Origin: Bradyrhizobium sp. SK17 | GTDB lineage: Bacteria; Pseudomonadota; Alphaproteobacteria; Rhizobiales; Xanthobacteraceae | NCBI RefSeq assembly: GCF_002831585.1 | Contig: NZ_CP025113.1 | Coordinates: forward strand, 2,232,001 to 2,296,000 | Length of the DNA stretch: 64,000 bases | Direction: 5' to 3' | In this document: piece after piece, positions 19,719-29,048 of the stretch | How positions within the stretch are numbered: position 1 is the stretch's first letter | Layout: the number at the start of each line of letters is the position of its first letter | Position numbers and translations under genes: made by a program | Notes under the pieces: model-generated | What the model saw: the letters and a program-made list of their open reading frames with translations, nothing else | Database searches by the model: none | Told to the model about the DNA's origin: nothing

Positions 19719-20990
19719 ATGAGAAAAATCGTCATGGTCGCGGCTGCGGCCGCCACAAGCCTTGCCTTCAACATCGCTCGCGCCGCGCCGCCGCTCCCGG
19801 AAGCCGCCGCGCACCAGGTCGGCTTCTCGGACCAGGGGCTGGCGCGGCTCGACGACTTCTTTGCCCGCGAGATCGCGGCCAAGCGGGTCCCCGGCGCCGT
19901 GGTGGCGATCGCCCGCGACGGCAGGCTGGTGCATTACAAGGCCTATGGCCAGCTCGATCCGGTCAAGGGCACGCCGATGCCGATCGATGCGGTCTTCGCG
20001 CTCGCCTCGATGACCAAGCCGATGGCGGCGGTCGCCGGTCTCACGCTGATGGAGCAGGGCAAGTTGCCGTTGCAGGCGCCGGTCGCCGAATATTATCCGG
20101 CGTTCGCCGACATGAAGGTCGGCGTGCAGCAGGCCGACGGTTCGCTGACCATGGAGCCGCAGGCGCGCCCGATCTTCATCCACGATCTCTATCGTCACAC
20201 CTCAGGCCTGATGTATGGCGGCCGGCCCGACAGTTCGAGCGCGCTGGCGCGGCTCTATCCCGACGGCACGGCGCCGGCCATCGAGGGTGATACCCAGGCC
20301 TTCATCGATCGCATCACCCAGTTGCCCCTGGTGCATCAGCCCGGCACCGAGTTCGAATATGGCTTCTCGATCGACGTGCTCGGCGCCGTGGTCGAGAAGG
20401 TGTCCGGCCAGCGGCTCGGCGACTATCTCAAGGCCAATGTCTGGACGCCGCTCGGCATGACGGACGCGACCTTCCATCCGACCGATGCCCAGCGCCCGCG
20501 GCTGGCGCGCCCGTTCGCCAGCGACCCGCTCACCGGCAAGCCGCAATCGATCAAGCTGCTGGATACACCGACCAGGTTCGACTGCGGCGGCGCCTGCTCG
20601 TTCGCCACCGTCGGCGACTATCTCCGCTTCGGCCAGATGCTGCTCAACGGCGGCGAGCTCGACGGCAAGCGTATCCTCGGTCCCAAGACCGTGCATCACA
20701 TGACGTCGAACCATCTCGGGCCCGAGATCAAGAACAACGTCGCCGCGGTCGAGCCGCATCGCGCCGGCTTCGGCTTCGGGCTGGCGGTCGCAGTGCGGAC
20801 CAGCGAAGGCCTGTCGTCGGTGCCGGGCAATCCCGGCGAGTTCACCTGGAACGGCGCCTATGGCACGCAGTTCTTCTGCGATCCGAAGGAGCGCCTCGTC
20901 GTGGTGGTGGGAACCGCGGCACCGGGCGAGCTGCGCAAATATTATCGCGAGAACGTACAGGACATCGTCTACGGCGCGATGGTGAAGTAA
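19719..20990 (+). CDS. Serine hydrolase, class C beta-lactamase/esterase family
   Basis: A 423-residue exported protein. The start at 19719 is set by GGTGGGG upstream and by the signal peptide MRKIVMVAAAAATSLAFNIA. The catalytic SxxK motif is SMTK (Ser97, Lys100) in ALASMTKPMAA. The second motif region is YRHTSGLMYG. The C-terminal part has GNPGEFTWNGAYGTQFF with a GxY-type beta3 element. Family members are beta-lactamases, D-aminopeptidases or esterases; length and motifs fit the esterase-like group. It is divergent from the caspase-like gene and followed by a terminator. Confidence 0.92.
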   Translation: MRKIVMVAAAAATSLAFNIARAAPPLPEAAAHQVGFSDQGLARLDDFFAREIAAKRVPGAVVAIARDGRLVHYKAYGQLDPVKGTPMPIDAVFALASMTKPMAAVAGLTLMEQGKLPLQAPVAEYYPAFADMKVGVQQADGSLTMEPQARPIFIHDLYRHTSGLMYGGRPDSSSALARLYPDGTAPAIEGDTQAFIDRITQLPLVHQPGTEFEYGFSIDVLGAVVEKVSGQRLGDYLKANVWTPLGMTDATFHPTDAQRPRLARPFASDPLTGKPQSIKLLDTPTRFDCGGACSFATVGDYLRFGQMLLNGGELDGKRILGPKTVHHMTSNHLGPEIKNNVAAVEPHRAGFGFGLAVAVRTSEGLSSVPGNPGEFTWNGAYGTQFFCDPKERLVVVVGTAAPGELRKYYRENVQDIVYGAMVK

Positions 20991-21004
20991 CGCCGCGTCG
21001 CATG

Positions 21005-21035
21005 GGCTGTCGGGACGACGGGGTTCCCGACAGCC
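21005..21035 (+). terminator. Terminator-like hairpin after the serine hydrolase
   Basis: An 11-bp perfect stem GGCTGTCGGGA (21005-21015) with TCCCGACAGCC (21025-21035), starting 15 bases after the stop codon. No U-run follows, so it is probably an imperfect intrinsic stop. Confidence 0.6.
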
Positions 21036-21274
21036 AGCCGTGCACCCAACCGAAAATGCATTTCATCCAAAATCGATCGATCCAGCGAAACGTCTGACGC
21101 GCGATCGTGCGTTCATGCCGAACATGCGCGCAGAGCGAGCGCCGTCGCAGAGAAACGGATTCTCTGGCAAGCGTTCGTTGCTGCATCGCCGCCGACCTCT
21201 CGACACATGCGCGCTCCATCGCCGGCGATATTTCGGCTGCGCAGCAGCAATCGACGCGTTTCGCGCCAACAAGA

Positions 21275-21288
21275 GAATACCGCTATTC
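21275..21288. promoter_or_regulatory. Candidate LysR-type operator upstream of the sulfone operon
   Basis: Perfect inverted repeat GAATA-CCGC-TATTC with an ATAC...TAT core, about 100 bases before the leader peptide. LysR-family sulfur regulators (CysB, Cbl) bind dyads of this general shape. No other gene is convincing in 21036-21385. A recognisable sigma-54 site was not found. Confidence 0.35.
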
Positions 21289-21385
21289 CAGATCCGGCCA
21301 AAAAGAGTTTGGCTTGGACTCGCTCGCCCGCATTTTCTCTGAGACTATTGATTGCTCGCCGATAGCGCTTGCGAGGGGAATGCGG

Positions 21386-21463
21386 ATGACTTGCACGGAC
21401 CTCCTGGATATCTCTCGAAGCCGCGTTGCGCCTCGCGCGCGATGTTGCGCCGGCTGCTGTTGA
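21386..21463 (+). CDS. Cysteine-rich leader peptide of the sulfone operon
   Basis: A 25-residue ORF: MTCTDLLDISRSR, then VAPRARCCAGCC and stop. GAGGGG lies 7 bases before the ATG at 21386; an in-frame ATG at 21380 is too close to it. Five of 25 residues are Cys, four in the last six. An Arg-rich, Cys-terminated peptide placed about 195 bases before a sulfur-starvation operon fits a translated leader: ribosomes stalling at the Cys codons when cysteinyl-tRNA is scarce would change folding of the following RNA. Polycysteine leader ORFs are known as cysteine-responsive attenuators in mycobacteria; the DLLDISRSR part also recalls actinobacterial putative leader peptides. Function here is inference. 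Confidence 0.68.
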   Translation: MTCTDLLDISRSRVAPRARCCAGCC

Positions 21464-21480
21464 CGCATCGGCGGCGTCCC

Positions 21481-21502
21481 GCGGATCAGCAGGGCTGACC
21501 GC
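21481..21502 (+). promoter_or_regulatory. Hairpin after the Cys-rich leader (possible attenuator)
   Basis: GCGGATCAGC and GCTGACCGC can pair with one bulged A, 18 bases after the leader stop codon. Its distance from the Cys codons would let a stalled ribosome alter its folding or that of competing stems. No U-run follows directly, so control could be by Rho or by translation rather than intrinsic termination. Confidence 0.4.
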
Positions 21503-21657
21503 CCCCACTCTCGAATAATCCCGAACAGACGACGGCAACAGAGCCGCGTCCGGACTCGCTGACATCGCGCAGCGTGAACGCATCGTGCTGCCTGCTTCCC
21601 GTCACGCCTTTCGTCGCCTGCCAACCGATTCACCCTTGAGGACACGAGGACATCCAG

Positions 21658-22758
21658 ATGACCACCAGCCATGATCCGATCAAGTTCGCCTATTGGGTGC
21701 CCAACGTCTCCGGCGGATTGGTCATCAGCAAGATCGAGCAGCGAACCGGTTGGGACATCGACTACAACCGCCGCCTGGCGCAGATCGCGGAGGCGGCCGG
21801 CTTCGACTACGCGCTGAGCCAGATCCGCTTCACCGCCGGCTACGGCGCCGAATTCCAGCATGAGCCGGTCGCCTTCAGTCACGCATTGCTGGCTGCGACG
21901 ACGAAACTGAAGGTGATCGCGGCATTGTTGCCCGGACCGTGGAATCCGGCGGTGGCGGCCAAGCAGATCGCCACCATCAGCCAGCTCACCGAAGGCCGCG
22001 TTGCCGTCAACATCGTCAGCGGCTGGTTCCGCGGCGAGTTCACCGCGATCGGCGAGCCCTGGCTGGATCACGACGAACGCTATCGCCGCTCGGAGGAATT
22101 CATCCGCGCGCTGCGCGGAATCTGGACCCAGGACAATTTCACCTTCCGCGGCGATTTCTACCGCTTCTCGGATTACACGCTGAAGCCGAAGCCGGCCCAG
22201 CCGCTGCCGGAGGTCTTCCAGGGCGGCAGCTCGCGCGCCGCGCGCGACATGGCCTCGCGCGTGTCGGATTGGTACTTCACCAACGGCAATTCGGTCGCGG
22301 AGATCAAGAAGCAGGTCGACGACATCAGGGCCAAGGCGCGCGCCAACAACCATTCGGTCAAGATCGGCGTCAATGCGTTCGCGATCGCGCGCGACAGCGA
22401 GGCCGAGGCGCGCGCCGTGCTCGACGAGATCATCGTCAAGGCCGATCCGGAGGCGGTCCATGCTTTCGGGCACGAGGTGAAGAACGCCGGCAAGGCCTCG
22501 CCGGAAGGCCAGGGCAATTGGGCGCAATCGAGCTTCGAGGATCTCGTCCAGTACAATGACGGCTTCAAGACCAATTTGATCGGCACGCCGGAGCAGATCG
22601 CCGAGCGCATCGTCGCGCTGAAGGAGGTCGGCGTCGATCTCGTGCTGCTCGGCTTCCTGCACTTCCAGGAAGAGGTCGAATATTTCGGCCGCCGCGTCAT
22701 CCCGCTGGTGCGTGCGCTGGAGGTGAAGACCGCCGCGCATGCCGAAGCCGCCGAGTGA
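21658..22758 (+). CDS. sfnG: FMNH2-dependent dimethylsulfone monooxygenase SfnG
   Basis: A 366-residue luciferase-like monooxygenase. SfnG oxidises dimethylsulfone to methanesulfinate with FMNH2 and O2, freeing sulfur under sulfate starvation. Family signs: FAYWVPNVSGGLVISKIEQR at the N-terminus, FDYALSQIRFTAGYGAEFQ, TEGRVAVNIVSGWFRGEF, DFYRFSDYTLKPKPAQPLP, and FQGGSSRAARDMA. The usual ribosome-binding site is weak (GAGGACACGAGGACATCC before the ATG). It heads an operon whose next five genes encode an ABC importer and whose last encodes a flavin enzyme. Confidence 0.95.
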   Translation: MTTSHDPIKFAYWVPNVSGGLVISKIEQRTGWDIDYNRRLAQIAEAAGFDYALSQIRFTAGYGAEFQHEPVAFSHALLAATTKLKVIAALLPGPWNPAVAAKQIATISQLTEGRVAVNIVSGWFRGEFTAIGEPWLDHDERYRRSEEFIRALRGIWTQDNFTFRGDFYRFSDYTLKPKPAQPLPEVFQGGSSRAARDMASRVSDWYFTNGNSVAEIKKQVDDIRAKARANNHSVKIGVNAFAIARDSEAEARAVLDEIIVKADPEAVHAFGHEVKNAGKASPEGQGNWAQSSFEDLVQYNDGFKTNLIGTPEQIAERIVALKEVGVDLVLLGFLHFQEEVEYFGRRVIPLVRALEVKTAAHAEAAE

Positions 22759-22774
22759 CGGGGAGCCCAGCAAC

Positions 22775-23692
22775 GTGACGGCGATGATGACGAATGCCGG
22801 CATCCTTGCGCTCGAGGCCGCTCCGGCGGAGGCCGCGGCGCGCGCGCTGGCGATCGCCGGTGCAGGCGATCGGGTGCGCGCGAAGGCCACGGATCGCGCG
22901 GACCGGCCGGTGCTGGCGCTCGCCGATATCGCGCTGACATTCGGTGGCGTCGCGGCGCTGCGCGGCGTCGATCTCGAGGTCGCGCCGAGGGAAATCCGCG
23001 CCGTGATCGGCCCCAATGGCGCCGGCAAGAGCTCGCTGCTCAACGTCATCAGCGGGCTCTACCGACCCGATCGCGGCCGGGTCTGGTTCGGCGCGCATGG
23101 GTTCGCGCAGGTACCGACGGCGGATCTCGCCGCGCACGGCGTCGCGCGCACCTTCCAGAACCTCGCGATCTTCAAGGGCCTGTCGGTGTTCGACAACGTG
23201 CTGATGGGGCTGGCACATCGCGTTCGCACCGGCTTCCTGCGCCAGATCATCGGTTCGCCGCTGGCGCGCCGGATCGAAGCGGAGAACCGCGCCGCTGCCG
23301 AGGACGTCATCGGCTTCCTGCATCTTGCCGAGGTCCGCGACCGCGCCGCGGGAACGTTGCCGTACGGCGTGCAGAAGCGGGTCGAGCTGGCGCGGGCGCT
23401 GGTGGCGCGGCCGCGGCTTTTGCTGCTGGACGAGCCGTTCGCGGGCGTCACGGCGGGCGAGAAGCGCGAACTGTCCGAGCATGTGCGCAATGCGCGCGAC
23501 AGCTATGGCGCCAGCATCGTGCTGATCGAGCACGACATCGGCGTGGTGATGGGATTGTCCGATCGCATCGCGGTGCTCGACGACGGCCGAAAGATCGCCG
23601 ACGGCACGCCCGGCGAGGTGCGGTCCGACCAGGCCGTGATCGACGCCTATCTCGGCGTCGCGCATGACGACGTGACGGAGCTCGCGGTCTGA
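22775..23692 (+). CDS. ABC transporter ATP-binding protein, LivG type
   Basis: A 305-residue ATPase of a branched-chain-type importer. GTG at 22775 with GGGGAG nine bases upstream is preferred; the frame extends to an ATG at 22739 inside sfnG. An unusual N-terminal extension of about 45 residues precedes the domain. Walker A is GPNGAGKS (79-86), signature region LPYGVQKRVELARAL (LPYGVQ in place of the usual LSYGQQ), Walker B LLLLDEPFAGV, and H-loop LIEHDIGVVMGL. The stop TGA shares its last base with the next ATG. Confidence 0.93.
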   Translation: MTAMMTNAGILALEAAPAEAAARALAIAGAGDRVRAKATDRADRPVLALADIALTFGGVAALRGVDLEVAPREIRAVIGPNGAGKSSLLNVISGLYRPDRGRVWFGAHGFAQVPTADLAAHGVARTFQNLAIFKGLSVFDNVLMGLAHRVRTGFLRQIIGSPLARRIEAENRAAAEDVIGFLHLAEVRDRAAGTLPYGVQKRVELARALVARPRLLLLDEPFAGVTAGEKRELSEHVRNARDSYGASIVLIEHDIGVVMGLSDRIAVLDDGRKIADGTPGEVRSDQAVIDAYLGVAHDDVTELAV

Positions 23693-24582
23693 TGTTCGAC
23701 TATCAGTTCTTCATCGAGGTCCTGGTCGGCGGCCTGCTGTCGGGGGTGATGTACTCGCTGGTCGCGATCGGCTTCGTGCTGATCTACAAAACCTCGGGCG
23801 TGCTCAACTTCGCGCAGGGCGCGATGCTGCTGTTCGCGGCGCTGACCTTCGTCAGCCTGGTCGAGCGCGGCATCGCGTTCCCGCTCGCGCTATTGATCAC
23901 GCTCGTGGTCATGGTCGCGCTCGGGGTGGCCGTCGAGCGCACGGTGCTGCGGCCGCTGGTCAACCAGCCACCGATCACGTTGTTCATGGCGACGCTCGGC
24001 CTGTCCTATGTGATCGAGGGCGCGGCGCAGCTGTTGTGGGGCACCCAGGTCCATGGCCTCGACATCGGCATCAGCGACGTGCCGCTCGACATCGCCGGTG
24101 TCTTCATCAGCCGGTTCGACCTGTTCGCGGCGGCGGTCGCGGGCAGTCTGGTGGCGCTGTTCGCACTGTTCTTCCGCTACACCCGGACCGGGCTCTCGTT
24201 CCGCGCCGTCGCCGACGATCCGTTCGCGGCGCTGGCCGTCGGGCTGCGGCTGCCGCGGGTCTGGGCCAGCGTGTGGACGGCCTCCGGCATCGTCGCGCTG
24301 GTCGCCGGGCTGTTGTGGGGCGCACGGCTCGGCGTGCAGTTCTCGCTCTCGCTCGTGGTGCTGAAGGCGCTTCCGGTGCTGGTGCTCGGCGGCTTCGATT
24401 CGATCGCGGGCGCGATCATCGGCGGCCTTCTGATCGGCGCGATCGAGAAACTCGCGGAGGTCTATGTCGGGCCGCTGTTCGGCGGCGGCATCGAGGCCTG
24501 GGCCGCCTATGTCGTGGCGCTGGTGCTGCTGCTGGTGCGGCCGTCGGGCCTGTTCGGGCAGAAGCTGGTGGAGAGAGTCTAG
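23692..24582 (+). CDS. ABC transporter permease, LivH type
   Basis: A 296-residue inner-membrane permease with about eight hydrophobic helices. The family loop GFVLIYKTSGVLNFAQGAML sits near residue 30 and the EAA-like region near the end (VLGGFDSIAGAIIGGLLIGA). It starts at the stop of the ATPase gene (TGATG). With the LivM-type partner it forms the channel for a sulfur compound, judging from the operon, not from its own sequence. Confidence 0.94.
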   Translation: MFDYQFFIEVLVGGLLSGVMYSLVAIGFVLIYKTSGVLNFAQGAMLLFAALTFVSLVERGIAFPLALLITLVVMVALGVAVERTVLRPLVNQPPITLFMATLGLSYVIEGAAQLLWGTQVHGLDIGISDVPLDIAGVFISRFDLFAAAVAGSLVALFALFFRYTRTGLSFRAVADDPFAALAVGLRLPRVWASVWTASGIVALVAGLLWGARLGVQFSLSLVVLKALPVLVLGGFDSIAGAIIGGLLIGAIEKLAEVYVGPLFGGGIEAWAAYVVALVLLLVRPSGLFGQKLVERV

Positions 24583-24585
24583 GCG

Positions 24586-25623
24586 ATGTCCGCAGCAGCA
24601 TCGACACGCGCCGTGTCTGGCCTCGCGACATTCGCGGGGATCGCCGCCGCCGTGGTTGCCTTTGGCGCGATCCCGTTTTTCGGCTCGGACTATCTGATGG
24701 ACGCGGTGCTGACGCCGTTCCTGGCGCTTGCGCTCGCCGCGGTCGGCCTCAATCTGCTCACCGGCTATGCCGGGCAGGTGTCGCTTGGCTCCGCCGCGTT
24801 CCTCGCGGTCGGCGCCTACGCTGCCTACAATCTCCACCTCCGGCTGCCGCAACTGCCGCTGCTGGTCGATCTGGTGCTGGCCGGCCTGGTCGCGGCCGCG
24901 ATCGGCATCCTGTTCGGGCTACCGAGCCTGCGGTTGCGCGGCTTCTACCTCGCGGTCTCGACGCTCGCGGCGCAATTCTTCGTACAGTGGGCGCTGACCA
25001 AGTTCGGCTGGTTCTCCAACGACAATCCGTCCGGCGTGATCGATGCACCCGCGCTGCGTGTCGCCGGCATCTCGTTCACGACGCCAGCGGGACGCTATCT
25101 GTTCTCCCTGATCGTCGTGACGACAGCGACTTTCCTGGCCTGGCGGCTGCTGCGCGCGCAGAGCGGCCGCAACTTCATCGCGGTGCGCGATCATGAGATC
25201 GCCGCCAAGGTGATCGGTGTGCCGCTGCTGCGCACCAAGCTGCTTGCGTTCGGCGTCTCGTCGTTCCTGATCGGCATCGCCGGCGTGCTGTGGGCATTCG
25301 CCTATCTGCGCACGGTCGAGCCAGCCGGCTTCAATCTCGATCGCTCGTTCCAGATCCTGTTCATCATCATCATCGGCGGGCTCGCCTCGCTGCGCGGCGC
25401 GTTTCTCGGCGCCGCCTTCATCGTGGTGTTCCCGCTGCTGCTGTCGCGCGCCGGCGCGGCGCTGCTCGGCGGGGTGTTCGATTCGGGCGTGCTCGAGATG
25501 AGCCAGCGCATCGTGATCGGCGCGCTGATCATCGCCTTCCTGATCGCCGAGCCGCGCGGGCTGATCGCGCTGTGGGACCGGCTGTGGGCGGCAATCGTCA
25601 AACGCGGCGCGGCGGCGACGTGA
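24586..25623 (+). CDS. ABC transporter permease, LivM type
   Basis: A 345-residue permease with about ten membrane segments. Family block ALAAVGLNLLTGYAGQVSLG near residue 50, and RNFIAVRDHEIAAKVIGVPL and IIGGLASLRGAFLGA in the second half. It begins 3 bases after the LivH-type gene. The C-terminus ends in a basic amphipathic tail, RLWAAIVKRGAAAT. Confidence 0.94.
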   Translation: MSAAASTRAVSGLATFAGIAAAVVAFGAIPFFGSDYLMDAVLTPFLALALAAVGLNLLTGYAGQVSLGSAAFLAVGAYAAYNLHLRLPQLPLLVDLVLAGLVAAAIGILFGLPSLRLRGFYLAVSTLAAQFFVQWALTKFGWFSNDNPSGVIDAPALRVAGISFTTPAGRYLFSLIVVTTATFLAWRLLRAQSGRNFIAVRDHEIAAKVIGVPLLRTKLLAFGVSSFLIGIAGVLWAFAYLRTVEPAGFNLDRSFQILFIIIIGGLASLRGAFLGAAFIVVFPLLLSRAGAALLGGVFDSGVLEMSQRIVIGALIIAFLIAEPRGLIALWDRLWAAIVKRGAAAT

Positions 25624-25651
25624 GATTTCCTTGAAAACGGAGAGGCTGAAG

Positions 25652-26980
25652 ATGATACGATCGCGAGTTCTGAAATTCGTTCTGGCCGCCGCGGCGGTGG
25701 TCTCGCTCGGCGGGGCACCGGCACGCGCCGACGAGCAGTTCTTTCCCCTGCAAAGCTACCGGGTCGGGCCCTATGCGGCCGGCGGCACCGGCTTCTTCGG
25801 CGGCTTCATCGACTATCTCAATTTGATCAACATCCGCGATGGCGGCGTCAACGGCGTCAAGCTGACCTGGGACGAGGGTGAGACCCAGTACGAGGTCGAG
25901 CGCGGCGTCGAGGTCTATGAACGGCTGAAGGGCCGGCCCGGCGTCGCCGCCTGGAATCCGCTGTCGGTCGGCATCGCCTACGCCATGATCGACCGCATCA
26001 CCAAGGACAAGGTGCCGCTCATCACCATCAATCACGGCCGCACCGATTCGACCGACGGCCGGGTGTTCCCCTACGTCTTCCCGCTGCTGCTCAATCCCTA
26101 CAGCGAGACCTCCGGCATCGTGAATTATATCGCGGGCCGCGAGGGCGGCATCGACAAGCTGAAGGGCAAGAAACTCGTCGTGCTCTATCACGGCTCGCCC
26201 TACGGCAAGGAGACCATCCCGATCTACAAGCTCTTGGCCGACAAGTATCAGTTCAGCCTGGAGCAGATCGAGGTGCCGCATCCCGGCAACGAGCAGCAAT
26301 CGCAATGGCTGTCGATCCGGCGCGCCAAGCCTGACTACGTGGTGCTGCGCGGCTGGGGCGTGATGAATCCGGTGGCGTTGAAGACCGCGCAGAAGGTCGG
26401 GTTTCCGGCCGACCACATCATCGGCAACGTCTGGTCCAACTCCGAGGAAGACGTGATCCCGGCCGGCGACGCCGCCAAGGGCTATATCGCAATCACCACG
26501 CAGGCCTCGGGCGAGCAGTATCCGGTGCTGCAAGAGGTGATCAAGACCGTCTACGGCGCCGGCAAGGGCAATCTCGACGACAAGAAGCGGATCGGCAGCG
26601 TCTACCACAACCTCGGCATCGTGAACGGCATCCTCAATGTCGAGGCGATCCGGATCGCGCAGGCGAAGTTCGGCAAGCGCACCTTGACCGGCGACGAAGT
26701 GCGTTGGGGCTTCGAGCATCTGCAACTCGATCCGGCGCGGGTCGAAGCGCTCGGCGCCAAGGATCTGTTCCATTCGATCAACGTCACCTGGGACAATCAC
26801 GAAGGCGACGGCCGCGTCACCTTCCAGCAATGGGATGGCAGCAGATGGAAGGTGGTCTCCGGCTGGATCGCACCGGACTGGGCCTTCCTGCGCCCGATCA
26901 TCGAGAAGTCCGCGGCCGCCTACGCCAAGGAGCACGGCATCAAGGTTCGCACCTCGGGTGACGACCCGGTCAGCAACTGA
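25652..26980 (+). CDS. ABC transporter substrate-binding protein
   Basis: A 442-residue periplasmic binding protein. The start at 25652 is supported by GGAGAGG and by the signal peptide MIRSRVLKFVLAAAAVVSLG, cleaved near ARADEQ. Type I (Leu/Ile/Val-like) fold: GTGFFGGFIDYLNLINIRDG, KLTWDEGETQYEVERGVEVY, and AYAMIDRITKDKVPLITINH. It is longer than amino-acid binding relatives and matches the group seen beside sulfone and sulfonate genes. The ligand is inferred from operon context. Confidence 0.92.
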   Translation: MIRSRVLKFVLAAAAVVSLGGAPARADEQFFPLQSYRVGPYAAGGTGFFGGFIDYLNLINIRDGGVNGVKLTWDEGETQYEVERGVEVYERLKGRPGVAAWNPLSVGIAYAMIDRITKDKVPLITINHGRTDSTDGRVFPYVFPLLLNPYSETSGIVNYIAGREGGIDKLKGKKLVVLYHGSPYGKETIPIYKLLADKYQFSLEQIEVPHPGNEQQSQWLSIRRAKPDYVVLRGWGVMNPVALKTAQKVGFPADHIIGNVWSNSEEDVIPAGDAAKGYIAITTQASGEQYPVLQEVIKTVYGAGKGNLDDKKRIGSVYHNLGIVNGILNVEAIRIAQAKFGKRTLTGDEVRWGFEHLQLDPARVEALGAKDLFHSINVTWDNHEGDGRVTFQQWDGSRWKVVSGWIAPDWAFLRPIIEKSAAAYAKEHGIKVRTSGDDPVSN

Positions 26981-27040
26981 GGTGTCGAGAGATCGCGGGA
27001 GCCGTCCGGCTCCCGCGTCCCCAACGGGATGGATCACGCG

Positions 27041-27829
27041 ATGAGCGACGTTCTGCTTTCGGTCGAAGGCCTTGCCGCGACCTACAACCACGCGATCGCC
27101 GCGGTCAGCGACGTCTCGCTCGCGGTGCGGCGGGGCGAGATCGTCGCCGTGCTCGGTGCCAACGGCGCCGGCAAGTCGACCACGTTGCAGGCGGTCTCGG
27201 CGTTGCTGTCCGCCCGCCGCGGCCAGGTCACCGCCGGCCGCATCGCGTTCGATGGCCGTGACATCGCCGGCGCGCCGGCGGCGGAGCTGGTGCGCGCCGG
27301 CCTGGTGCCGGTGCTCGAGGGACGGCACTGCTTTGCCTCGTTGACGGTGGAGGAGAATCTGATCACCGGCGCGATGGGGCGCGATGCGCGGCGGGCCGAG
27401 ATCGCCGTGGACCTCGACCGCATCTACGCATTGTTTCCGCGCCTCAAGCAGCATCGCCGCTCGCTGGCCGGCCTGACCTCGGGCGGCGAGCAACAGATGA
27501 CGGCGATCGGCCGCGCCTTGATGTCGCGCCCGCGGCTCTTGGTGCTCGACGAGCCCTCGATGGGTCTCGCGCCGCTGGTGGTCGAGGCAATCTTTCGCGC
27601 GCTCAAGCAGCTCAACAGCGAGCAAGGATTGTCGATCCTGGTCGCGGAGCAGAATTCGACGGTGGCGCTGCGCTTCTCCGACCACGCCGTCGTGCTCGAG
27701 AACGGGCGCAGCGTGCTGTCGGGCGCGGCGGCCGAACTGCGGCAGCGCGCGGACATCAAGACACATTATCTCGGCGGGTCGTCGCAGGACGATCTGAGCC
27801 GGAGGCAGCCGAGCCAGGCTGTCGTATGA
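27041..27829 (+). CDS. ABC transporter ATP-binding protein, LivF type
   Basis: About 262 residues. Walker A GANGAGKST, signature TSGGEQQMTAIGRAL (TSGGE rather than LSGGE), Walker B LLVLDEPSMGLAP, switch region VAEQNS. The ATG at 27041 follows GGGATGG by 8 bases; an in-frame ATG at 27029 is the alternative. It is the second ATPase of the importer, placed after the binding-protein gene. Confidence 0.92.
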   Translation: MSDVLLSVEGLAATYNHAIAAVSDVSLAVRRGEIVAVLGANGAGKSTTLQAVSALLSARRGQVTAGRIAFDGRDIAGAPAAELVRAGLVPVLEGRHCFASLTVEENLITGAMGRDARRAEIAVDLDRIYALFPRLKQHRRSLAGLTSGGEQQMTAIGRALMSRPRLLVLDEPSMGLAPLVVEAIFRALKQLNSEQGLSILVAEQNSTVALRFSDHAVVLENGRSVLSGAAAELRQRADIKTHYLGGSSQDDLSRRQPSQAVV

Positions 27830-27851
27830 TTGCAACCCGGAGAAACTGACC

Positions 27852-29048
27852 ATGGCCAACGACAATCTCGCACGCAAGATCGACGACGACGTTTATGCCA
27901 GGCTCGATGCCGCCATCGACACGACGGTGAAGGTCAATGCCGATCGCAACGATCGCGAAAGCCGTTTCCCGCGCGAGAACCTTCGCGCGCTGGCGGAGGC
28001 CGGCTGGACCGGTGTGCTCAACGAGCCGCAGTTCGGCGGGCTTGGCCTCAGTCATGTCGACTTCGCCGAAGCGGCCTACCGGATCGGGCAGGCCGATGCA
28101 TCGACCGGCCTCGTCTATGTCATGCATGTCGGGGCTGCCCAGACCATCAACCTGTTCGGCAACGCCGATCAGAAGGAGCGCTGGCTGAAGGCCAGCAATG
28201 GCGGCCTGCTCGGGACATACTCGACCAGCGAGCGCGCCACCGGCGGTCACTGGTGGTACAATCTGTCCGAAGCCTCGCGTGACGGCGACGACTATCGCGT
28301 CAACGCCGAGAAGTCATTCACGACGAGTTCGGGGCAGGCCGACTATTACGTGGTGCAAACCCGCACGCCCGGTGCCAAAGACCAGGCCGACATCATCTTC
28401 TTCATCGTCGACGGCAAGGCCAAGGGTATCGAGTCCAGGCCCTGGGATGCGCTCGGCGTTCGCGCCAACTCTTCCGGCCCGATCCGCTATAGCAACGTGC
28501 TCGTTCCGCAGCGCGACCGGCTCGGTGCCGAAGGGCAGGGCAAGGAGATCATCTATGACGGCGTCTCGCCGGTCTATCTGATCGGGCTCGGTGCGGTCTG
28601 GGAAGGCGTCGCGCGCGGTGCGCTGAACGCCGCGATCGCCCACACCACGAGCTTCGTGCACAAGGACAGGAACAAGAGCCTGTCCGATTATCAGGCGATC
28701 CGCCAGGAATTGGGCGCCGCCAAGGTGCTGGTCGAGACGCTGCGGCCGTGGCGCAACGAACTGGCAGGCAAGCTCGACGCGCTCTGGCGTGCCGGCAAGC
28801 CGCAAAGCGAAATCCTGATTCCGCTGACCGAGTTCAAGGTGCATGCCGCCGAGGTCGCCAACAAGGTTGCGGCGACGGCGCTGACGGTGACCGGCGGCTA
28901 CGGCTATCACCGTGGTCCGATCGAGCGCGCCTATCGCGACGCGCGCGCGGCGATCGCGATGGGACCGTCCAATGTCATCGCGCGCGACTGGATCGGGAAG
29001 GCGCTGGTCGGCCTGCCGCTCGAACTGTTTTACGAGGGCGGAGAATAG
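27852..29048 (+). CDS. Acyl-CoA-dehydrogenase-like flavoprotein of the sulfone operon
   Basis: A 398-residue member of the acyl-CoA dehydrogenase superfamily: N-terminal helical domain (FPRENLRALAEAGWTGVLNE), beta domain GTYSTSERATGG and NAEKSFTTSSGQADYYVVQT, and C-terminal helices ending TALTVTGGYGYHRGPIERAY. The catalytic Glu of true acyl-CoA dehydrogenases is not evident. Relatives in sulfur operons (SfnB/DszC-like) act as flavin-linked monooxygenases on organosulfur compounds, and I favour that here. It is the last gene before a bidirectional terminator. Confidence 0.9.
   Translation: MANDNLARKIDDDVYARLDAAIDTTVKVNADRNDRESRFPRENLRALAEAGWTGVLNEPQFGGLGLSHVDFAEAAYRIGQADASTGLVYVMHVGAAQTINLFGNADQKERWLKASNGGLLGTYSTSERATGGHWWYNLSEASRDGDDYRVNAEKSFTTSSGQADYYVVQTRTPGAKDQADIIFFIVDGKAKGIESRPWDALGVRANSSGPIRYSNVLVPQRDRLGAEGQGKEIIYDGVSPVYLIGLGAVWEGVARGALNAAIAHTTSFVHKDRNKSLSDYQAIRQELGAAKVLVETLRPWRNELAGKLDALWRAGKPQSEILIPLTEFKVHAAEVANKVAATALTVTGGYGYHRGPIERAYRDARAAIAMGPSNVIARDWIGKALVGLPLELFYEGGE

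Follow-up and report, generated by a model that had tools for sequence, protein, structure and literature searches.

The short open reading frame (ORF) that precedes sfnG in Bradyrhizobium sp. SK17 is quite probably a leader (uORF) through which ribosomes regulate the sfnG operon in response to cysteine, such that stalling at its terminal Cys codons would turn the operon on. The leader would in this way probably act as a switch that senses cysteine shortage. We observe the position of the ORF, its conservation, its enrichment in Cys and the scarcity of Cys in the operon behind it; its translation, the Cys-tRNA signal and the direction in which that signal works are what we infer. Throughout, the window is the whole stretch of DNA that was analysed, 64,000 nucleotides in length, and the positions of its features are collected in Table 1.

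The description of the ORF in the original prediction was borne out by the sequence, namely 25 codons with a good ribosome-binding site, five Cys residues (codons 3, 20, 21, 24 and 25) and a CC-stop end. The distance to sfnG, claimed as about 195 bases, measures 194 from the leader stop to the sfnG start (21658). There is an alternative in-frame ATG at 21380, which lies one base from GAGGGG and is absent in several relatives. The frequency of such ORFs was assessed using 4000 regions of the same length drawn from a Markov model, of which 30 contained an ATG ORF of 15-40 codons having at least five Cys and 15 contained one ending in CC, with no Shine-Dalgarno (SD) sequence demanded of the random ORFs. 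Genome-wide, the pattern GAGG-N4..10-ATG-N45..75-TGYTGYTGA gives 15 matches, two of which are in-frame ORFs ending in CC. The second of these (L187) lies on the minus strand and overlaps, in a different frame, what by eye looks like a kup potassium-transporter gene. The leader peptide of the window has no NCBIfam match, and a search of Rfam 15 over 20900-21800 gave a miRNA family on the other strand, far below its cut-off, as the sole match.

Table 1 Features of the leader region and the presumed sfnG operon in the window.
Feature	Position	Strand	Remarks
AAAAAGAG element 5' of the box	21300-21307	+	sequence
Conserved upstream box CTTGGACTCG-N13-TCTCTGAGA	21313..21344	+	core matches at sfnG loci of the genus
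Shine-Dalgarno GAGGGG of the leader ORF	21373..21378	+	7 bases 5' of the ATG at 21386
Leader ORF MTCTDLLDISRSRVAPRARCCAGCC-stop	21386..21463	+	25 codons, stop TGA; sequence
Presumed regulatory Cys codons TGT TGC (GCC GGC) TGC TGT and stop TGA	21443..21463	+
Possible hairpin over the last Cys codons and stop	21456..21475	+	predicted
Untranslated stretch, leader stop to sfnG	21464..21657	+	no U-tract terminator, somewhat C-rich
Second hairpin GCGGAUCAG...CUGACCGC	21481..21502	+	predicted
sfnG, dimethylsulfone monooxygenase	21658..22758	+	NCBIfam TIGR04021 equivalog, 614 bits against a cut-off of 382.95
Rest of the presumed operon, six genes	22739..29048	+	closely spaced, same strand

A search of the genus for sfnG (E <= 1e-150) gave 49 loci in 46 of 265 Bradyrhizobium genomes, with two copies that are perhaps incomplete (L122 has an internal stop, and L138 matches from residue 46 onward). 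By SfnG sequence, the nearest named relatives (96-97% identical) are Bradyrhizobium sp. CER78, B. tropiciagri and B. embrapense. We see a short ORF of 20-49 codons at all 49 loci, placed 62-75 bases 3' of the core of the upstream box. The leader ORF of each locus was picked by its SD and not by its Cys content, which gave 47 distinct ORFs and 46 distinct peptides. The best GAGGGG-like hexamer agrees at 6/6 positions in 29 loci, 5/6 in nine, 4/6 in nine and 3/6 in two, so that at least four positions match in 47 of the 49, and a short ORF with a ribosome-binding site, as a leader peptide would have, is general among these loci.

Cys accounts for 152 of the 1277 codons in the 46 distinct peptides (11.9%), compared with 5.2% and 3.4% when the stretch is read in its two other forward frames, 2.1%, 1.1% and 8.0% in the reverse frames, and 4.0 +/- 0.5% in base shuffles. 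All 46 peptides contain Cys, 44 contain at least two, and 43 have Cys among the last six residues. The original prediction expected support from conservation of the peptide end in front of sfnG across other Bradyrhizobium, and such conservation is indeed found over the 49 loci: 33 of the 46 distinct peptides have a C-terminal Cys, while 13 are exceptions that end otherwise. The terminal arrangement shifts between loci as Cys persists, with ends such as RCCAGCC, RCCCACLC, SRCSCAPGC and VCAWLC. Six of the peptides lacking a final Cys have diverged or frame-changed ends. In L105 and L106 the sole Cys near the end stands a few residues before it; L130 and L137 have an early stop, with a second overlapping frame that runs to the usual UGU-UGA; and in L134 and L138 the end is extended. 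When 24 peptides chosen from the 46 are aligned, one Cys column is invariant and the start region is similar, with the majority consensus M-x-C-x-x-L-x-D. With the exceptions noted, the Cys codons are both enriched and conserved, as regulatory codons should be.

Codon changes were counted in nearest-neighbour pairs within clades for 39 of the 49 loci, after L094, L100 and L120 had been dropped as near-duplicates and L105, L106, L116, L130, L134, L137 and L138 had also been left out. The rows are related within clades and the pairs are thus not independent, with 64 synonymous against 184 nonsynonymous changes in total. This indicates that the peptide as a whole is hardly constrained. Residue retention was highest for Cys (81/105), with 44/59 for Asp and 467/811 for all non-Cys residues together; the Cys codons are kept and the peptide drifts, as if selection acted on codons. 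Where the 47 distinct ORFs end in Cys, that last codon is TGT 32 times and TGC twice, whereas the 28 long ORFs of the window use TGT 17 times and TGC 88 times. Internal Cys codons of the leaders are mixed (TGT 57, TGC 41), and the 24 Cys codons that fall within the first four leader codons are all TGC. The near-fixed final TGT (32/34) points to an extra constraint at the RNA level, which this codon seems to carry in addition. The TGT-TGA end is present at 21458-21464 of the window and in relatives, and the base 3' of the stop is C in 28 of the 49 loci (TGAC).

The six genes after sfnG encode a LivG-like ATPase, two Liv/Urt-type permeases, a substrate-binding protein, a LivF-like ATPase and an acyl-CoA dehydrogenase family protein. 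The NCBIfam matches shown for these six genes are all under the curated cut-offs. The substrate-binding protein (449 aa) has no NCBIfam match and is named by its place among the ABC genes, and SfnB is among the weaker matches of the acyl-CoA dehydrogenase family protein. Judging from spacing, sfnG and these six genes are presumably co-transcribed. The seven operon proteins (21658-29048) contain one Cys and 21 non-initiator Met in 2437 residues, and SfnG itself has no Cys. In the 34 other ORFs of the window Cys makes up 0.98% and Met 2.11% of residues (operon Met is 0.86%), a depletion with P of about 1e-9 for Cys and about 1e-6 for Met. Low in both residues, the products of the seven consecutive genes make this an operon that spares sulfur. 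Cys is likewise missing from all 48 SfnG sequences counted in Bradyrhizobium and from 71 of 74 in other genera, so that its absence goes with the enzyme rather than with the leader lineage. The near-absence of Cys in the operon fits expression under cysteine shortage, and the leader would be the only Cys-rich product of the presumed transcript.

The original prediction also cited a hairpin after the ORF. Compared to shuffled sequences, the predicted hairpins of the window are not stronger (z -1.03, or -0.03 for the short piece 21461-21482 alone). Among 14 relatives from the same clade as the window (g1), the hairpin at the stop is paired in 67.1% of cells, in another register, and the second hairpin in 75.6%; the four helices taken together show no covariation above controls in these 14 sequences. 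No intrinsic terminator, i.e. a hairpin with a U-tract as in a classical attenuator, was found in 21200-21800, and TTTT or longer lies between the stop and sfnG in just 4 of the 49 leaders, which makes an intrinsic terminator unlikely. With z near zero, weak conservation in the clade and no U-tract, the hairpin is not upheld as an attenuator. What stands of the proposed Cys-codon leader is the ORF with its selected Cys codons, seen over 49 loci and ahead of a Cys-poor operon. In another clade (g2; eight sequences, one of which supplied the structure) 95.8% of cells are paired. Seven cells have two-sided changes, a value as high in 5/500 shuffles, and the covariation score is reached by 7/500, while the number of pairs with two-sided changes (53/500) and of pair types (267/500) is not unusual. 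Support for structure in this clade is modest and mixed, and no helix common to the clades is clearly supported. The best 60 nt before sfnG have a C-over-G value of 10.0 +/- 3.1, compared with 7.2 +/- 4.3 for 24 other upstream regions in the window, and this slight excess lends weak support to the involvement of Rho.

The core of the upstream box lies 295-364 bases 5' of sfnG in the 49 loci. Allowing at most one mismatch, the core TTGGACTCGCT is found 420-250 bases before sfnG in 37 of the 49 loci, and shuffled cores in at most one; with up to two mismatches, it is found in 46 (shuffled cores: mean 1.0, maximum 12). The other three loci have a core with three mismatches, which is within chance, as shuffled cores reach 10.3 loci on average. 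A longer box pattern (at most one mismatch) has matches in 92 of 251 genomes, with four for a reversed control, and the box is present as a single copy in its own genome. It is probably a promoter or activator site, and may bind a sulfur regulator. It fits no promoter class that we recognised: by eye there is no recognisable sigma-54 -24/-12 site, and a search for a sigma-70 promoter gave no clear candidate. The LysR-type dyad that had been noted upstream (GAATA-N4-TATTC, 21275-21288) is real in the window, yet was found in only one of the 49 loci.

Elsewhere in the genome, four tblastn matches to the leader (E 0.49 and weaker) lie in or beside unrelated long ORFs and were set aside. The 1500 bases upstream of three other alkanesulfonate-monooxygenase-like genes hold no SD-preceded ORF ending in Cys. 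Two screens were applied to 74 sfnG loci of other genera, the strict one giving one weak TTG candidate (L040) and the looser one giving one weak ATG candidate (L072); in Bradyrhizobium the same two screens recover an ORF with a final Cys at 38 of the 49 loci. The sfn genes of Pseudomonas are under the control of SfnR and sigma-54, with sfnG used under sulfate limitation, and the Pseudomonas sfnG loci screened differ in having neither the Bradyrhizobium-type box nor the leader. A search of the family (391 genomes) gave 11 matches in nine genomes of three other genera (L198-L208). In one of these genera, two of the three sfnG genomes have Cys-ended leaders (L198, RCRSC; L202, RRCRCC). No Cys-ended leader was found at L200, of the same genus, or at that genus' 59% identical second match L207, and the remaining matches gave no clear one.

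A further 40 places in the genus with matches to the box were examined, and the box was confirmed in 39 of them (at L174 there is none). Relics of the sfnG operon are present at 23 of the 40: sfnG fragments at 11 (L139, L143, L144, L150, L151, L154, L157, L161, L162, L165 and L169), the end of the acyl-CoA dehydrogenase gene at nine (L141, L145, L147, L152, L153, L160, L166, L170 and L171) and a permease piece at three (L156, L159 and L173). These deletion scars and decayed sfnG copies suggest repeated loss of the operon within Bradyrhizobium. Nine of the 11 loci with sfnG fragments still have a leader that ends in Cys or is rich in it, the exceptions being L139 and L165, so decay of sfnG is not clearly accompanied by loss of Cys. 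At the other 17 places no operon relic was found at that search sensitivity. A GNAT acetyltransferase-like gene lies about 250-580 bases behind the box at L140 (called by eye) and at L148, L149, L155, L161 and L163 (called by Pfam); at all of these except L161, we read it as a putative neighbour left after deletion. At L142, L164 and L167 the box is followed by a leader ending in Cys (MMRNNIFDIVIPLRAELVNDLCASFC), with nothing behind it that is recognisable as a piece of the operon, and these are either orphan leaders or diverged relics; at L142 and L164 the first 1.5 kb of the strand in question lacks a good coding frame. The box matches at L175-L178 look fortuitous. Among the 40 places no other operon was shown behind the box that would mark it as part of a wider regulon.

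Under the favoured reading, ribosomes would load on the leader soon after transcription starts. With ample Cys-tRNA, a ribosome would pass the terminal Cys codons and depart at the adjacent stop; the leader RNA would then be exposed, and operon expression would stay low. When sulfur is scarce, Cys-tRNA would be scarce in turn, and the ribosome would pause on the last Cys codons, where it would cover or refold the RNA just 3' of the stop and allow the operon to be expressed. The proteins made under shortage would require almost no Cys. As for the output step, Rho-dependent termination before sfnG seems to us a slightly better candidate than translational control of sfnG or an effect on mRNA decay. 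A model for this is E. coli tnaC, where an event at the last codons and stop masks a downstream Rho site and the TnaC peptide senses free tryptophan. An event at the last codons and stop of the sfnG leader would likewise mask a downstream Rho site, but the peptide sequence is not conserved as in tnaC, and the expected signal is charged tRNA-Cys. We tentatively extend this to a more specific proposal, doubtful as a whole, in which the box and a leader ending in UGU-UGA form a module of the Bradyrhizobium lineage where a ribosome held on the final Cys codon or on the stop keeps Rho from acting, giving a cysteine-sensing counterpart of tnaC that gates a nearly Cys-free, organosulfur-scavenging operon.

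The same Cys-sensing leader could have a translational output, with a stalled ribosome freeing the sfnG ribosome-binding site or changing mRNA decay and no premature termination. We consider this possible, though more doubtful than not. There is precedent in the cysteine genes of M. smegmatis, which a passage of PMC13236596 gives as translation-attenuated, and in clade g2 there is some covariation in the hairpins, while in the stall model the sfnG SD becomes more accessible in seven of eight members (from 0.18 to 0.69 in L108, and from 0.29 to 0.79 in L112). However, when a ribosome is modelled on the last Cys codon of all 49 leaders, the mean unpaired fraction of the sfnG ribosome-binding site goes from 0.44 to 0.46. 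Consistent masking of that site, freed by the stall, is therefore not seen over the 49, and by eye no anti-SD pairing is common to the clades.

It is also conceivable, if unlikely, that a conserved RNA or DNA element (the terminal CUGUUGA with the SD region) is what selection keeps, and that the Cys codons are a by-product. The preference for a final TGT against the TGC bias of the window would suit such an element, as would the g2 SD segment TTGACAGAG, which can pair with CTCTGTTGA in 98.6% of cells, most pairs never varying. The internal Cys codons are nevertheless enriched as well, at changing positions and in both codon forms; the enrichment is absent from the other frames of the same stretch, and helix 1 of g2 has no two-sided change. 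We regard a small Cys-rich protein with a function of its own as very improbable: the similar start region of the aligned peptides would agree with one, but the non-Cys sequence drifts by mostly nonsynonymous change, the lengths vary more than twofold (20-49 codons) and the peptide of the window is without a family match. The least credible alternative by far is a chance ORF in an untranslated region. GC-rich sequence is rich in spurious ORFs, and a five-Cys ORF did arise in 30 of the 4000 random regions, but a chance origin is rejected because the same place and the same Cys bias recur over 49 loci. Conservation thus argues strongly against it, and confirms that the leader ORF at 21386-21463 is no chance ORF and that the observation is real. 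The cysteine-responsive leader is the reading we retain.

Mycobacterial polycysteine leaders have reportedly been tested experimentally, by Canestrari in 2020, in work that by its title concerns leaderless ORFs. Whereas the mycobacterial Cys ORFs are leaderless, the Bradyrhizobium leader has an SD. That such attenuators were already described in mycobacteria is correct, as the relevant passages of Seliverstov 2005 (PMC1262725) present leaders with Cys runs close to their stop codons at mycobacterial cys operons, in P. acnes and at cbs of B. longum. Those passages describe no conserved terminator, give Rho as a weak prediction and name tnaC as a possible model. The sfnG leader resembles these actinobacterial leaders, as portrayed there, in being a short ORF before a sulfur operon with Cys codons near the stop, in lacking a conserved terminator hairpin and in leaving Rho as a possibility. 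They serve cys operons or cbs in the same passages, whereas the Bradyrhizobium leader serves an organosulfur-scavenging monooxygenase and transporter, and we claim no sequence relation.

The original prediction knew of no described case for alphaproteobacterial sfnG operons. No Cys leader at sfnG was found in the literature searched, which was largely without subscription journals, but a correction is due: a Cys-codon attenuator has been proposed at cysS of Rhodobacterales, where the passage concerned in PMC8632094 describes the leader uORFC-8-2, with conserved Cys codons and proposed stalling at Cys-tRNA shortage. Both are uORFs of Alphaproteobacteria with conserved Cys codons. As that passage has it, uORFC-8-2 has its tandem Cys codons within a stem, at around codons 14-15, with an intrinsic terminator with a U-run and a cysteinyl-tRNA synthetase gene behind it, whereas the sfnG leader has its Cys at the end, no U-run and another operon. 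Elsewhere, a passage of PMC13236596 cites Canestrari 2020 for the translation attenuation in M. smegmatis, one in PMC9094748 mentions Cys-rich regulatory sORFs of mycobacteria, one in PMC2965389 describes an attenuator-like element before a sulfonate transporter operon and names no leader, and one in PMC8079986 has a Streptomyces leader before metN with Cys among other residues. The relevant passages of PMC1273637 name no Cys leader, and the words cysteine and sulf are absent from the text available of PMC10117765 (S. meliloti small proteome) and PMC5082802 (B. japonicum sORFs).

In short, the sfnG leader looks like an additional Cys leader, on another kind of operon than the cys and cysS cases. 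If this is true, cysteine-codon leaders extend to organosulfur scavenging in a large genus of plant symbionts, where a Cys-rich sensor would be paired with an operon almost free of Cys. The reading offers a testable rule on the role of the Cys codons, along with 49 natural variants, and it poses anew the question raised in Actinobacteria, namely by what means a Cys leader that lacks a terminator could control the operon behind it.
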